From Akkermansia sp. (GTDB taxonomy: Bacteria; Verrucomicrobiota; Verrucomicrobiia; Verrucomicrobiales; Akkermansiaceae): 64,000 nucleotides of DNA. Within the stretch, counting starts at the first letter, position 1; the number at the start of each line of letters is the position of its first letter. The stretch covers positions 1 to 64,000 of the forward strand of contig JAFQGD010000057.1 in the NCBI GenBank assembly GCA_017398355.1. The letters are read 5' to 3'. Positions 19,881-31,459 of this stretch are shown here, piece after piece. The notes beneath the pieces are model-generated. The model was not told the origin of the DNA. It saw only the letters and a program-made list of their open reading frames with translations, and did not search any database. A program made the position numbers and the translations under genes.

Positions 19881-21503
19881 ATGCAGACAAAAAACATTAT
19901 GAAACAAAAAGTCATCAAGATTGCCGTAGGCAGCTTGTTGGGTATTGTTTTGCTTACTCTGGTAATTACCCTGTGTCTGGGGGGTGAAACAGATCCGCTG
20001 GAGTATGAGGTAGAAAAGGGTATCTTGTCTGAAGATTATGTGGTAAAAGATGCCGACATGAACCGCTTGAAGGAGGAGATATGCAGCCACCACCAACGCC
20101 GAATAGACGAAGTGGAAACGCTGGCCGATTACCCCTACATAGTACAACTACTGCGATACGACATAGGCACAGGTTCCAATCTTTCCCCATCCATCTACAC
20201 CAATTTGGCAAAGGCAGGAGCCAACCCCAATGATAAATCCGGAGAAGGAGAAAGCGCTCTGCATGTGGCGGTGCAACACAAACTCGCTACCCATATTTCT
20301 GCCTTGGTGAATGCCGGGGCCGATGCAGACACCCGCAACGGCCGCGGGCTTACCCCCCTTGCTTGTGCCACAGCCAACAACAACGCAACCATCGTCTCTG
20401 TACTACTGAGCAACAAAGCCAACCCCAATGCCACCAACAGCGATGGCACAACTGCCCTGCACAAAGCAGCGGAATCGGGTGCCTTGGAGTTGACAGAAGC
20501 ACTCCTGAAAAGCGGAGCCGATCCCAACGCAAAAGATCATACCGGCACGACACCGCTGCACAAAGCCGCAGCCGCCGGGCATGCCGCTATCGTAAGCACG
20601 CTCACCACAGCAGGGGCAAAACCGGATTTGGCCAATGATGCCGGGGAATCACCCGTTCTCTTTGCCGTCAACAACAAAAAGGTAGCAGTGCTCAAGGAAC
20701 TGGCAACCGCCGGGGCCAACATGAACATCCGCAACCGCCGGGGCGATACCGTCTTGTTCTCCGCCATCACGGAAGGAGAAAATGCCATCATTGCAGCCCT
20801 GCTTAATGCCCAGGCAGACCCTAACATGACCGGTCGCAACGACCGCACGCCACTGCATGCAGCAGCCCAACGCGGAAATGCCGGGGTGGTCAAAAAATTG
20901 CTTGAGGCAGGTGCAGATGTCAATGTCAATGACCGTTTCGGGACATCTCCTCTGTGTGAGGCCATTTCCCACGGTAAAGAAGAAGTGGTGGATATGCTTC
21001 TGAAAGTGGGAGCCGACCCCAACTCCACAAATGGACACGGCAACAGCATGCTCTTCCTCGCCATTAGCGGCAACCACCACCGAATTGTGAACTTACTGCT
21101 GGAAGCCGGAGTAGATGCCAATAGCCGCGGGAAAGACGGAGCCCTGCCACTGCACAGAGCGATTGAGCGTGGCAATGACCAGATGGTTATCGCACTGCTG
21201 GAAGCCGGAGCTGATTTCAAAGCCAAGGACAACTACGGATTCATGGCCATTCACAAAGCCTGTGTCATGGGGCGCAAGGATGTGGTGGTGGCGTTGATTA
21301 AAGCCGGAGTCAACGTCAATGAGATCGATGATTTCAAATACACCCCCCTGCACTACGCCGCCAAAAAAGGGCACCTGAAAATTGCGGAAATCCTGGTAGA
21401 TGCCGGTGCCAACACAAAGGCAAAAAACAACAACGGAACCACGCCCGTGCAGGAAGCAAAACTGAGCGGGCATGAAGAAATGGTAGAACTACTCGGCAAA
21501 TAA
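19881..21503 (+). CDS. Membrane-anchored ankyrin-repeat protein, 540 aa
   Basis: A protein-interaction scaffold. A single N-terminal hydrophobic segment (IKIAVGSLLGIVLLTLVITLCL, residues about 12-33) acts as an uncleaved anchor or signal. After about 75 residues come twelve full 33-residue ankyrin repeats and a partial thirteenth, with classic pieces such as GTTPLHKAAAAGH, DRTPLHAAAQRGN and YTPLHYAAKKGH, each ending near LL.AGADPN. The anchor places the repeats in the periplasm if the topology is N-in. An alternative ATG at 19899 would shorten it by six residues. Its partner is unknown; it has its own promoter and faces tatD/radC convergently. Confidence 0.9.
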   Translation: MQTKNIMKQKVIKIAVGSLLGIVLLTLVITLCLGGETDPLEYEVEKGILSEDYVVKDADMNRLKEEICSHHQRRIDEVETLADYPYIVQLLRYDIGTGSNLSPSIYTNLAKAGANPNDKSGEGESALHVAVQHKLATHISALVNAGADADTRNGRGLTPLACATANNNATIVSVLLSNKANPNATNSDGTTALHKAAESGALELTEALLKSGADPNAKDHTGTTPLHKAAAAGHAAIVSTLTTAGAKPDLANDAGESPVLFAVNNKKVAVLKELATAGANMNIRNRRGDTVLFSAITEGENAIIAALLNAQADPNMTGRNDRTPLHAAAQRGNAGVVKKLLEAGADVNVNDRFGTSPLCEAISHGKEEVVDMLLKVGADPNSTNGHGNSMLFLAISGNHHRIVNLLLEAGVDANSRGKDGALPLHRAIERGNDQMVIALLEAGADFKAKDNYGFMAIHKACVMGRKDVVVALIKAGVNVNEIDDFKYTPLHYAAKKGHLKIAEILVDAGANTKAKNNNGTTPVQEAKLSGHEEMVELLGK

Positions 21504-24596: not shown

Positions 24597-26732
24597 ATGA
24601 AACTGAGAGTATTGACAAGCGTGTTGTTGCTAGCGGGCAGTGCGCTGGCCCAAATGCCGGGCACGCCGGCAACCCGAGTGCAGGTGGAGAAAGCCACCAC
24701 GGGGTTGGACATGATTTTTCGCCGGAGCATCGGGCATGTGGAAGCTATCCGCAAGGTGCAGGTGCGCTCCGCAGTGGAAGGATTTTTGATGGAAGCCAAA
24801 TTCAAGGAAGGCAGCATTGTGCAAGAGGGGGATGTGCTTTTCGAAATCAACCCCATTCGCTACAAAGCAGCCTTTGCCCAAGCGCAAGCCACCTTGAAAG
24901 AAATCAACGCGCGTATCATCTACGCTGAAAATAACTACAAAAGGCTCAAAGCTTTGGCTAGCAGCCATGCAGCTTCTGTTGAAAATGTTGAAAGCGCCCT
25001 TGCCCGATTGGAAGGCCTGAAAGCTCAAAAAATTGAAGCAGAAGCCAACCTAGTCAAAGCAGAAAAGGATTTGAACGATTGCACCATCCGCGCAGAAATC
25101 ACCGGGCGCATTGGTCGCAGGGAATTCTCCAAAGGCAACTATATCACCCAAGGTGAAATGCTGGCCACCATCACCCAGACAGATCCCATCTATGTGCGTT
25201 TCCCGCTCAGCCAGAGCGATGTGAACGGCATTTTCCGCGGGCCCAAGGAAATTAGCAACGTGGCCAACGTAAAACTGACCACGGCAGATGGCCGCGGATA
25301 CCCCGATGCCGGCCACATTGAAATTGTGGACAACCTGCTCACCGGCAATACGGATACCTACACCCTGTGGGCCAAGTTCGACAACAAAAAGCAAGTACTC
25401 ACCCCGCGTGGCATCGGCGCGCTCCACATTTCGCTGACGAATACGGCAGAGGTAACGATGGTGCCCCTCACCGCCGTGCATCATGATGAAGTGGGGGCAT
25501 ACGTATACACCGTGGACAACGAGGGCAAAGTAGCACGCCGTGAAGTCATCTCCGGCACAGTCCAAGGGCGCATGCAATCCATTTATGATGGGCTGCAACC
25601 CGGCGAAACCGTCATCACCGATGGTTCCCACAAGACCCGTGTGGGAGCTACGGTCATGCCCGTCTACCCGGAAGAACAAAAACTGGCAACAAAGCCGGGC
25701 CGGGCCAGCACGCAAAATGAAGAAGCAACTGTGGTGGCAGAAATTGCGGAAGCGAGCCCCATAAGCGACCCCACCGTGTTGGTGTGCCAAGGCGCGCGGG
25801 TAGAGGCCATCAACCGCGTCAACATTCGCCCGCTGGTACAAGGGGTGTTGGAAGAGCCTGCCTTCAAGGAGGGCGACCGCGTGAAACAGGGAGACGTGCT
25901 CTTCAACATTGACCCCACCCGGTACAAAGCCACGGTAGACGCGCAGAAAGCCAAAATCATGCAGCTCGATGTGCTGATTGCGGATGCCACCAGCAAATAC
26001 GAACGCCAGCAGCAACTCATCGCCCGCAATGCCACCAGTAAGGATGATGTGGAAAGCGCCAAGGCGACCCTGGATGAGCTGCAAGCCCAGAAAGAAAAGG
26101 CCCAGGCCGTCCTTGCAGTGGCAGAAGATGACCTCTCCCGCTGCACGGTGCGTGCCGCAATTGATTCCCGCATCGGGCGCGTCAACTTCTCCAAAGGCAA
26201 CTACATCACCGATATCAAATCCCCGCTGGCTACGCTGGTGCAGCTCAGCCCCATTTATGTGCGTTTTTCACTGAGTGAAAGCAGCATTCTCTCCCACTTC
26301 GGCAATGTGGAAGACCTCATCCGCGATGCAGAAATCACCCTCGTCACAGCCAATGGCAAAACATTCAGCGAAAAGGGCTGCGTATCCTTCTGCGATAACG
26401 TGATTCAGCAAGCAACCGATACCCAAAACCTGTGGGCCATTTTCAACAATGCCGAGCGAGAGCTGCACCCCGGAGGTGTAGTGACGATACGTGTCAAACG
26501 CAAAGCAGACATCACCGTACCGGGCATCCCGGCACAAGCGGTGCAAGTAGATACACGCGGCAAATATGTATACCTGCTCAAAAATGGGCGGGCCGTGCAA
26601 ACGCGCATCCACTGCGGCACGGCAGATGAAAATGGCATGGTACCCGTCTTTGCCGGTTTGGAGAACGGGGCCAAGGTCATCACCACCCAGTTGGCAGAAT
26701 TGGAAAACGGCACTCCGGTACAAGCTAAGTAA
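24597..26732 (+). CDS. Tandem-fused RND periplasmic adaptor (two MFP modules), 711 aa
   Basis: Links an RND pump to an outer-membrane channel. A signal peptide (LTSVLLLAGSALA) without lipobox is followed by two complete membrane-fusion-protein modules, about residues 25-365 and 395-711. Each repeats the order lipoyl half (GFLMEAKFKEGSIVQEGDVLF; GVLEEPAFKEGDRVKQGDVLF), coiled-coil hairpin, second lipoyl half (GRIGRREFSKGNYIT; SRIGRVNFSKGNYIT), then DPIYVRFPLS/SPIYVRFSLS and a C-terminal membrane-proximal domain. Normal adaptors are about 370-400 aa with one module. The linker (KPGRASTQNEEATVV) is short. The RND pump gene follows after 21 nt. The modules are clearly diverged, so this is an old fusion rather than a recent duplication. 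Confidence 0.9.
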   Translation: MKLRVLTSVLLLAGSALAQMPGTPATRVQVEKATTGLDMIFRRSIGHVEAIRKVQVRSAVEGFLMEAKFKEGSIVQEGDVLFEINPIRYKAAFAQAQATLKEINARIIYAENNYKRLKALASSHAASVENVESALARLEGLKAQKIEAEANLVKAEKDLNDCTIRAEITGRIGRREFSKGNYITQGEMLATITQTDPIYVRFPLSQSDVNGIFRGPKEISNVANVKLTTADGRGYPDAGHIEIVDNLLTGNTDTYTLWAKFDNKKQVLTPRGIGALHISLTNTAEVTMVPLTAVHHDEVGAYVYTVDNEGKVARREVISGTVQGRMQSIYDGLQPGETVITDGSHKTRVGATVMPVYPEEQKLATKPGRASTQNEEATVVAEIAEASPISDPTVLVCQGARVEAINRVNIRPLVQGVLEEPAFKEGDRVKQGDVLFNIDPTRYKATVDAQKAKIMQLDVLIADATSKYERQQQLIARNATSKDDVESAKATLDELQAQKEKAQAVLAVAEDDLSRCTVRAAIDSRIGRVNFSKGNYITDIKSPLATLVQLSPIYVRFSLSESSILSHFGNVEDLIRDAEITLVTANGKTFSEKGCVSFCDNVIQQATDTQNLWAIFNNAERELHPGGVVTIRVKRKADITVPGIPAQAVQVDTRGKYVYLLKNGRAVQTRIHCGTADENGMVPVFAGLENGAKVITTQLAELENGTPVQAK

Positions 26733-26753: not shown

Positions 26754-29700
26754 ATGTTCTCACAATTTTTCATTTATCGTCCCAAGTTTGCGTTCGTCAT
26801 CTCCATCCTGATGATGCTGGCAGGGTTGCTTTGCATCAGCAAGATGCCGATATCAGAATACCCGGAGGTATCGCCGCCCACGGTATCAGTAAACATGAAC
26901 TACAACGGTGCCAGCGCCGAGGAATTGGCCCAAGTAGTGGCAGCCCCGGTGGAGGAACAGCTGGTGGGGATGGATGACCTGCTCTACTTCTACTCCTCCT
27001 GCGCCAACAACGGCTCCTACTCCCTGACCCTCATTTTCGAGACCGGCACCAACGACGACATGGCCATGATTAACGTGTCCAACGCTATCAAGGCTGTGGA
27101 ATCCAAATTGCCGGCAGAAATCAAGCAAAACGGCTACCGCATCCGCAAGCGCTCCGGCGACATGCTGTGTTTCATCAACTTCATGTGCGATGAAAACAAG
27201 ATGAGTGTGCTCGACCTCTCCAACTGGTTGCGCATGAATGCCAAAGACCGCATCGGCCAGGTGAGTGGCGTATCCAGCGTAGATATTATCCCCAACCGCA
27301 ACTACGCCATGCGTATTTGGATGAATACCACACGCATGAGTGCCCTCAACATCACCCCGGCGGATATCCGCAAGGCTATCGAAGCACAAAACATCCAAGC
27401 TGCTGCCGGCTCCGTGGGCTCGGAAGACGAACAGTCGTACGCTACTTTCAAGGTGACGGCTACGGGCCGACTCAAAACCGCAGAGGAATTCGGCAACATC
27501 ATCGTAAAACGCGGTGAGGGTGGTCATGTGACCAAGTTGAAAGATATCGCCACCATTGAACTGGGAGCCGAGCGTAACTCCGGCTACAGCCGACTCAATG
27601 GCAAGGATGCCGTGGGGATGATTATTCACCGCAACAATGAGGCCAACGCCTTGGCCACTGTGCAGGCAGTGCAAACCATGATGAAAGAAATTGAAGCCAC
27701 CATGCCCGATGGCATGGAATGGCAAATGGGCTATGACCCCACCCAAGCCATCTCTGCCACCATGGAAGAAATCATCATCACCTTGGGGCTGGCTCTCTTC
27801 CTAGTGGTGCTGGTGACCTTCATTTTCCTGCAAGACTGGCGCGCCACGCTTATTCCCTCATTGGCCATTCCGGTGTCTTTGCTGGGAGCCTTCGTCATCA
27901 TGTACGCATTGGGCTACACGATTAACGTGCTCACCATGTTCGGCCTCATCCTCGTGATTGGTTCACTGGTGGATGATGCCATTGTGGTCGTGGAAAACGT
28001 GATGCGACTCATCCAAGAAGAAAAGCTCAGCCCGCGGGAAGCTACGATTAAGAGTATGAAACAAATCACGGGTGCCATCATCGCCACCACGCTGGTGACG
28101 CTGGCGGTGTACGTGCCGATAGCCTTCTATGGCGGCATGGTTGGTGTGATTTACACGCAGTTCTCCGTGACCATGTGCGTGGCGCTCTGCATTTCCACCT
28201 TCAACGCCCTTACCCTCTCCCCTGCTCTGTGTGCCCTGATTTTGCGCCCGGCAGGTGTGAAACAGAGTAAACTCTCCGAGTGGATGTTCAAGCCCTTCAA
28301 CTGGTTTATGGATGTGTGCCGCCGCATCTACTTATGGGGGGCAGGCATTTTGGTCCGCAACGCCTGGTTGACGGTACTGCTGCTGGCAGCCGTTCTTTTT
28401 GGCAACTACATCTACTTCTCAGGCTCCCCCTCTTGGTGGTATGATATTTTCCACAGCAAAGAACAGCCTGTTGCCCAAGCGCCCGCCCGTGGCAAAGCCC
28501 CGGCCAAGAAGAGCTTCGACATACTCGACCTCATCGCCCCGGATGCTATGAACAGCTCATTCATCCCCACGGAAGATAAGGGTACGCTCTTCGTGATGAT
28601 TACCATGGAAGGCACGGCCACCGCCAAGCAGCGCACAGATAAAGTGCTGCGCCAGCTGGAGGCGCGCATGAAAAACATCCCCGGCATTGCAGCCGTTACG
28701 GCACAGAGCGGCTACAGCTTTGCCAGTGGCTCCGGTGAGAGCCGCGCCATGATGATTATTCTGCTGGACCACTGGAGCAAACGCACCACACCGGATTTGC
28801 ACGTGTCAGCCATTGCAGCCAAGGTCAATGCCGCCTGCGCAGACATCCCCGAAGCCTCCATCATGGCCGTGACTCCGCCCGCCATCCAGGGGCTGGGTAT
28901 CTCCGGCGGTATTTCTATGGTGCTGCAAGCCTCCGGCGATACCACGCCGCTGGACATGGGCAACATGGTCAAAGAAATTCAGGCGCGTCTGCAATCACAC
29001 AGCGACCTCGTCTCCCTCGTACGCAGTGAGTACAATGCAGAAAACCCGCAAATTCGCTTGGAAATCAACCGCGAAAAAGCACAATCTCTCAATGTGCCGG
29101 TAAACACTATTTTCAGCACCTTGCAGAGCGTGATGTCGTCCCTCTACGTCAACGATTTCACCCTCAACGGATTCAACTTCAAGGTTATGATGCAGGGTGC
29201 CACCCAAGACCGCCGCACGGCGGAGGACATTCTCAACCAAATGGTGCGCAACGAAAAGGGGGAAATGGTACCGCTCTCAGCGGTATGCTCCATTTCCCAC
29301 ACGGTGGGGCCGGATTCCTACGGGCGTTTCAACCAGTACATGAGCGCAGATATCACTGTGATGGCTCAGCCCAACGTGGGCTCCGGGCAAGTCATGAAGC
29401 TCATTGAGGACACCATCGCCCAAATCAACAAGGAAGAGCGCGCTGCCGGCCACGACCGCCAGTGGATGGTGAGCTGGAAAGACCTTTCCTACCAAGAACG
29501 CCAGAACGATGGCAAGGTGGGCATCCTCGTGGGCTTAGCCATGCTCTTTGCCTACCTCTTCCTCGTGGCGCAGTATGAGAGCTGGACCACCCCGGTACCG
29601 GTGATGCTCTCGGTGAGTGTGGCCACGTTGGGCGCCTTGATGGGGGCACGCCTCTTCGGGCTCACACTGTCCATCTATGTGCAGCTTGGCCTGCTGATGC

Positions 29701-30110: not shown

Positions 30111-30347
30111 ATGAAAATTACCCCCGTTCTTCGTGCCAAGAAATCTCTGTTACCTGCCACACTTCTGCTGACCGGTAGCACCCTCATGGCTGGCTGCGAC
30201 CGCCACACACCCCCGGGTGATGTACCCTATACCGACAATGCTCAGACATCTGCAGATGATACACAGCAACTTATCGGTAAATATATAATCTCCCACCCGG
30301 AGCCACCCAAGCCAAAGCCCCAGTCTCCCCCCGCTACTGACGAATAA
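30111..30347 (+). CDS. Small lipoprotein coupled to a radical SAM enzyme
   Basis: A 78-aa protein with a lipoprotein signal peptide (LLPATLLLTGSTLMAGC, acylated Cys29) and a 50-residue mature part: an acidic, polar stretch containing DVPYTDNAQ, then LIGKYIISH and a Pro/Lys tail (PEPPKPKPQSPP). No family is recognised. Its TAA stop shares one base with the ATG of the downstream radical SAM/SPASM gene (TAATG), so the two are translationally coupled. That arrangement resembles small substrates next to radical SAM maturases. The single Tyr-Thr-Asp could suit an aromatic crosslink, but this is speculation. It lies 78 nt after the RND pump gene; a weak promoter (CATATT near 30082-30087) may serve it. 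Confidence 0.68.
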   Translation: MKITPVLRAKKSLLPATLLLTGSTLMAGCDRHTPPGDVPYTDNAQTSADDTQQLIGKYIISHPEPPKPKPQSPPATDE

Positions 30348-31459
30348 TGACCGGGCCACTCACCCTCACTCTTTGTCTTACGCACCAATGCAATTTGCGC
30401 TGCCGCTATTGCTATGCGGGGCGCAAGTACCGCAGCACCATGTCGCAAGCAACGCTGGAGCGAGCAGTCGACATCGCTTTGGATGAAGCGCAGCGCCTTG
30501 GACGGCATCTTGATATTTCCTTTTTTGGGGGCGAGCCTCTGCTGGAGTGGGAGCTTTTGCAATACGGCTGGCAGTATGCCACGCAAAAAGCAACCAACAG
30601 CAAGGTACGCCTCCGCTTCGGCCTCACCACTAACGGCACACTCCTCTCCCAAGAAAAATCAGCTTGGCTTGTTGAGCGCGATTTTCTGATTGGTCTGTCG
30701 CTTGATGGCTCTCCTGCCATGCACAACACGAACCGCTGCTTTGCCAACGGCAGCGGTAGCCATACACAAGCAAGCCGGGCTCTCAGGCACCTGCAGCAAT
30801 ATCCCTCTGCTCGCTTCAAAATTATCTGCGTAGTCGATCCGCACAATCACCTATACCTATGCGAGGGGGTGCGCTGGCTGCACCGTCACAAGGTCGGCAC
30901 CATCGGGCTCAATTTCGACTACTGGAGTCCGTGGTCGGATGCTCAGTTTGAGTCTCTTGCCCACCACATGCAACTTTTGGCCGACCAAGTTTTGGACTCA
31001 TACCGCGCCGGCACTCCCTGGCAAGTGGAATGCTTCGCGGATAAAATCCGTAGCTATATTGAGCAACCCCAACATTCCTGCAACCGCTGCCAACTAGGAG
31101 AACGCGAGCTGGCTGTATCGGTCGATGGGCACTTTTTCCCCTGCTCTCGGCTCGTAGGCGTGGGGGATGACCCCGCCATCACATTCGGAGATGTGCACAC
31201 AGGCATCAACCGAGCGCGGCAACAATTTATCATCGCCACACGTGGCAATGCCACACCGGAGTGCCGCTTGTGTGCACTGCGCTACCGCTGTATCAACTCC
31301 TGTGGTTGCAGCAATTTTGCATCGTCCGGGGCCATAAACCAAGTATCCCCTTTCCTTTGCAACCTTCAACAGCTCATCATACGGCTGGCCGATACCTTGG
31401 CAGAAACGCTCTACGCTGAGCGCAACCCTGCCTTCATGCAGCAATTTTACGGCCAATGA
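30347..31459 (+). CDS. Radical SAM/SPASM-domain protein (putative peptide maturase)
   Basis: A 370-aa radical S-adenosylmethionine enzyme. The [4Fe-4S]/SAM motif CxxxCxxC is Cys15, Cys19 and Cys22 in CNLRCRYC, followed by FFGGEPLLEWELL (SAM-binding GGEP). The C-terminus has a full SPASM pattern for two auxiliary clusters: CQLGERELAVSVDG..PC (CX12GX4C), CRLCALRYRCINSC (CX2CX5CX3C) and a last Cys in SPFLCN. SPASM proteins include sulfatase maturases and RiPP maturases. The N-terminus resembles the peptide-modifying branch more than classical anSME, but a sulfatase-maturase role cannot be excluded since no sulfatase is in view. The 1-nt overlap with the upstream lipoprotein makes that protein the natural candidate substrate. 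Confidence 0.87.
   Translation: MTGPLTLTLCLTHQCNLRCRYCYAGRKYRSTMSQATLERAVDIALDEAQRLGRHLDISFFGGEPLLEWELLQYGWQYATQKATNSKVRLRFGLTTNGTLLSQEKSAWLVERDFLIGLSLDGSPAMHNTNRCFANGSGSHTQASRALRHLQQYPSARFKIICVVDPHNHLYLCEGVRWLHRHKVGTIGLNFDYWSPWSDAQFESLAHHMQLLADQVLDSYRAGTPWQVECFADKIRSYIEQPQHSCNRCQLGERELAVSVDGHFFPCSRLVGVGDDPAITFGDVHTGINRARQQFIIATRGNATPECRLCALRYRCINSCGCSNFASSGAINQVSPFLCNLQQLIIRLADTLAETLYAERNPAFMQQFYGQ

Follow-up and report, generated by a model that had tools for sequence, protein, structure and literature searches.

A natural tandem fusion of two RND periplasmic adaptors encoded directly before an AcrB-type pump in Akkermansia

The stretch of Akkermansia DNA analysed here (64,000 nucleotides; hereafter the window) encodes a single polypeptide in which two complete, diverged RND periplasmic adaptor modules are joined by a short linker, directly before the gene of an AcrB-type RND pump. 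We consider it probable that the chain is a genuine, selected tandem adaptor produced by in-place duplication and fusion, and that it acts as a pre-linked dimer, three chains of which would serve each pump together with an outer-membrane factor (OMF) encoded elsewhere. The features of the locus are collected in Table 1.

The open reading frame runs from an ATG start to a TAA stop and is matched in two separate stretches by the NCBIfam profile TIGR01730 (RND_mfp), with 431.7 bits against a cut-off of 94.9. BLASTP aligns the two halves with each other at 41% identity across 298 aa (E 1e-69), a likeness far beyond chance. The AlphaFold2 model of the chain, computed from an input alignment of 25 sequences, has a mean pLDDT of 86.7; either half contains strands followed by a helical hairpin and then more strands, an order that fits lipoyl halves, a beta-barrel and a membrane-proximal domain. 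The hairpin helices comprise residues 87-122 and 128-160 in the N-terminal module (N), and 441-476 and 482-514 in the C-terminal module (C). Disorder is confined to the signal peptide and residues 360-375 (pLDDT <50). Module C has N-terminal strands of its own (residues 379-403), so that its membrane-proximal part can be complete. The initial annotation had described a natural tandem fusion of two complete, diverged adaptors with a short linker, and the twofold profile match, the identity between the halves, the model and the orthologues in 58 genomes (see below) all bear this out. The profile score above the cut-off, the domain order within each module, the RLS motif and the neighbouring pump with its proton-relay residues together identify the chain as an RND periplasmic adaptor.

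Table 1. Features of the tandem adaptor locus (positions are those of the window; residues are those of the encoded protein)
Feature	Position	Strand	Evidence
Tandem RND periplasmic adaptor, 711 aa	24597..26732	+	TIGR01730 twice; orthologous fusion in 58/76 genus genomes
Signal peptide without lipobox, residues 1-19	24597..24653	+	Sequence; no conserved Cys in aligned orthologues; cleavage site predicted
Adaptor module N, residues 24-359	24666..25673	+	AlphaFold2 model; monophyletic, 100% SH-aLRT
Helical hairpin of module N, residues 87-160	24855..25076	+	AlphaFold2 model; spacing 75 residues in 25/25 orthologues
RLS OMF-docking motif of module N, R116-L120-S127	24942..24977	+	Of 25 orthologues, all have R and L, and 24 have S
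Flexible linker and approach to module C, residues 360-378	25674..25730	+	pLDDT <50 at 360-375; 28% mean identity
Adaptor module C, residues 379-711	25731..26729	+	AlphaFold2 model; monophyletic, 100% SH-aLRT
Helical hairpin of module C, residues 441-514	25917..26138	+	AlphaFold2 model; spacing 75 residues in 25/25 orthologues
RLS OMF-docking motif of module C, R470-L474-S481	26004..26039	+	25/25 orthologues
AcrB-type RND pump, 1092 aa	26754..30032	+	PF00873, 923 bits; relay residues kept
Pump insertion between TM7 and PC1, residues 560-600	28431..28553	+	Only in fusion-linked pumps among those measured

Among 76 genomes of the genus Akkermansia, mostly metagenome-assembled genomes from herbivore guts, the fusion is present, in full length or partly recovered, in 58, a single adaptor in 17, and neither (at the threshold used) in one. 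A separate collection comprises 57 fusion loci, nearly all titled Akkermansia or Akkermansiaceae, whose gut hosts are goat, sheep, buffalo, yak, deer, cattle, rabbit, horse and chicken. As the carriers are largely metagenome assemblies, an artefact of assembly or sequencing, in which a stop and a start were lost between two genes, had to be considered, and the initial annotation had itself named such an artefact in related genomes as the danger to its reading. The reading frame is, however, open in dozens of independent assemblies, and the 58 genomes come from many projects and hosts, with one continuous frame and a coherent module phylogeny. The artefact is therefore rejected, and we assign it a negligible probability. 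A single in-frame TAG occurs in the fusion gene at two loci, L023 (genome G030; codon 421) and L034 (G031; codon 164), both counted from the start of the match, and represents either a pseudogene or an assembly error. Outside the genus, no such tandem (tandem A) was found in 387 sampled genomes of the phylum, in which the best candidates per genome were scored, or in 150 genomes of another phylum; a tandem of another subfamily could escape either survey. In a plasmid search with the fusion, the top matches were single adaptors matched by both halves, with no tandems.

The origin of the fusion was examined in a tree of 91 modules, including six single adaptors found beside orthologous pumps. 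The N modules and the C modules are each monophyletic (100% SH-aLRT), and together with the six single adaptors they form one clade, also at 100%; a joining of two unrelated adaptors is thus not favoured. In the pump tree, 14 fusion-linked pumps constitute one clade (100%) nested inside the single-adaptor pumps, with two of the latter as nearest relatives (97% support). Judged from these two phylogenies, the ancestral state was most likely the single adaptor, and the fusion would have arisen once, when the single-adaptor gene was duplicated in place at the base of one Akkermansia branch. The data leave several orders of N, C and single adaptor within the clade, and the arrangement of N and C as sisters is not rejected (p 0.32). 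In other Akkermansia, the single adaptor orthologue (about 379-405 aa) resembles the fusion in its subfamily, its orthologous pump and its lack of a lipobox, but it consists of one module, and its pump is without the TM7-PC1 insertion of the fusion system.

Both modules are under purifying selection, and the linker is far freer. Relative to the L070 orthologue, dN/dS is 0.035 for module N, 0.029 for module C and 0.28 for the linker; relative to L071, it is 0.045 and 0.139 for modules N and C, respectively. All these ratios are rough because dS is near saturation. The RxxxLxxxxxxS (RLS) motif at the hairpin tip, which docks TolC (PMC3391258), is retained in both modules, and all 50 modules of the 25 orthologues have a hairpin spacing of 75 residues. 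The length of the linker between V356 and D391 is kept at 30-35 residues, whereas its mean identity is 28%. N and C show fixed differences at only 12 sites, most of them in the barrel and hairpin (by approximate domain borders), and a specialisation of the modules to two different positions is consequently weakly supported.

The pump gene starts 21 nt past the stop codon of the fusion, in operon-like order, and its PF00873 score confirms the AcrB-type pump that had been placed directly after the fusion. Residues D407, D408, K989, R1019 and R1021 are conserved in 26 of 26 aligned pumps; the proton-relay residues of RND pumps are named in PMC8277102. The insertion between TM7 and PC1 occurs in all 55 fusion-linked pump entries measured (which include a few genomes entered twice under two locus ids) and in none of six single-adaptor pumps. 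It is about 30-70 residues long and highly variable in both length and sequence; in the AlphaFold2 model of the pump it follows directly on the TM7 helix (537-556) and is mostly disordered, and by homology with AcrB it would lie on the periplasmic side. As insertion and fusion arose on the same branch, their co-occurrence counts as a single event and not as independent evidence. Elsewhere in the genome, a further RND pump gene (L145; G000:C32:4507-7585) is split into frames of 998 aa and 59 aa, by either a frameshift or an assembly error.

No OMF gene lies beside the fusion-pump pair within the window. OMF genes occur elsewhere in the genome, in an adaptor-pump-OMF operon, beside an ABC-type efflux set and at other sites, and any of them could serve the pair in trans. 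The gene right after the pump (30347-31459) encodes a radical SAM protein that scores below the cut-off against RiPP-maturase models. Upstream, positions 19881-21503 encode a 540-aa protein that consists largely of ankyrin repeats; the named profiles that fit it best are ankyrin-repeat effector models, with scores that fall far short of the cut-offs, and only the repeats are meant here. No match was established between the fusion locus and the bile-response RND genes of A. muciniphila (PMC7671984).

The signal peptide had been described as free of a lipobox, with anchoring by contacts only. The first part agrees with the sequence and with the aligned fusion orthologues, none of which points to a conserved lipobox; the missing anchor is, however, no trait of the fusion as such, since a lipobox was also not found in its single-adaptor relatives, and its lack is thus ancestral. 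An N-terminal lipid anchor, common among RND adaptors without defining them, is accordingly absent. As delipidated AcrA is functional (PMC8277102), this does not exclude the fusion from the RND adaptors.

The same genome codes for a second tandem adaptor on another contig (L036:2240-5215; G000:C12:35239-38214), an open frame of 1003 aa (992 aa from the ATG) with two TIGR01730 stretches, a long C-terminal region past module 2 and an AcrB-type pump of its own directly after it. It probably carries a lipobox and would then be a lipoprotein. Among the genomes examined, it is present in 29 of 31 with tandem A and in none of six with the single adaptor. The AU test rejects a shared origin for the two (p 5e-65), which indicates that the genus fused adaptors twice; a grouping of the N modules of both tandems is likewise rejected (p 2e-178). 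Neither this tandem nor the pump insertion was included in the earlier reading of the locus. It is conceivable, and we propose it only tentatively, that both tandems are covalent heterodimers specialised for two non-equivalent positions, evolved twice, and that one of the pumps co-evolved the TM7-PC1 insertion as a contact with its fused adaptor.

In the working model, each fused chain would fill two adjacent, non-equivalent adaptor positions at one pump protomer, and three chains would complete the hexameric funnel around the pump trimer. The linker would set the order of the modules along the ring, and both hairpins would dock on a TolC-type OMF encoded elsewhere. It is plausible by analogy that three chains occupy the six positions in a fixed alternation: every pump protomer of AcrAB-TolC is in contact with two AcrA protomers, I and II, which differ in conformation (PMC5404916), fused AcrA dimers are reported to be functional (PMC4446572), and a fusion was deposited with three chains (6VEJ, see below), all of which favours three chains per pump. 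We infer the stoichiometry, the alternation, the OMF in trans and the efflux function itself from such comparisons.

The linker bears directly on a different reading, in which the chain is cut there after export and matures into a separate, TriA/TriB-like adaptor pair in an exact 1:1 ratio. Its disorder in the model and its nearly unconstrained sequence would suit such cleavage, but the alignment contains no conserved site, and a length held so closely would be needless in a segment destined to be cut; we regard this course as unlikely. Still less probable is an arrangement of six chains per pump in which one module works at the pump or OMF while the other is a spacer or a regulatory remnant: it may be structurally feasible, yet both modules have kept the RLS motif, the hairpin length and a low dN/dS, and with six chains the pump would be surrounded by twelve modules. 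The pre-linked dimer therefore remains the favoured reading.

The debate on how many adaptors an RND pump has, and on what the two positions per protomer do, has drawn chiefly on engineered fusions, structures and TriABC. A natural fusion that is established in dozens of species, and that has two origins in one genus, lends independent support, from evolution, to the adaptor dimer as the functional unit. Because the halves differ in sequence, mutations confined to one of them can probe what each position does, which is impossible in homohexameric AcrA, and the single-adaptor species with an orthologous pump offer a natural before-and-after comparison.

The nearest precedents for such an arrangement are the engineered AcrA tandems and PDB entry 6VEJ. 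This entry contains three chains of a 695-aa RND adaptor fusion, presumably the TriA-TriB fusion of the TriABC study. A junction-only search gave a weak 6VEJ match (E 0.56), on which we base no claim of linker similarity. TriABC-OpmH of Pseudomonas aeruginosa employs two diverged adaptors for one RND pump, like the two modules described here; TriA and TriB are, however, separate genes in nature (PMC8277102), whereas the Akkermansia fusion is genomic and its modules stem from a duplication of their own. The MexC-type, AcrA and MexA adaptors (PDB 9j3d, 5o66 and 6iok) align with single modules of the fusion along their length but are single-module chains, six per pump. Consistently, Foldseek with the whole fusion model aligned one module at a time to single adaptors, with no tandem among the matches listed. 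In the literature covered, which excludes most subscription papers and is thus weak evidence on this point, neither a fusion of two complete modules linked to an RND pump in a Gram-negative genus nor two independent adaptor fusions in one genome came to light.

Fused adaptors as a kind are already known, and the adaptor dimer is regarded as a functional unit (PMC4446572, PMC4338810). A fused AcrA tandem restores AcrA function (Xu et al. 2011, as cited in PMC4446572); such constructs also carry two adaptor copies per chain, but they are engineered and repeat one adaptor. A natural counterpart is DSY0927 of Desulfitobacterium hafniense, a fusion of two adaptors (Zgurskaya et al. 2009, as cited in PMC4446572 and PMC4338810), whose likeness to the Akkermansia chain is one of architecture only. 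As far as these citing accounts describe it, its N-terminal half is of the MF type without a coiled coil, whereas both halves of the Akkermansia fusion are complete and RND-type; its host is treated as Gram-positive in the review, whereas Akkermansia is Gram-negative. With two adaptor modules in one natural chain, the Akkermansia protein thus joins DSY0927 as a fused dimeric adaptor.
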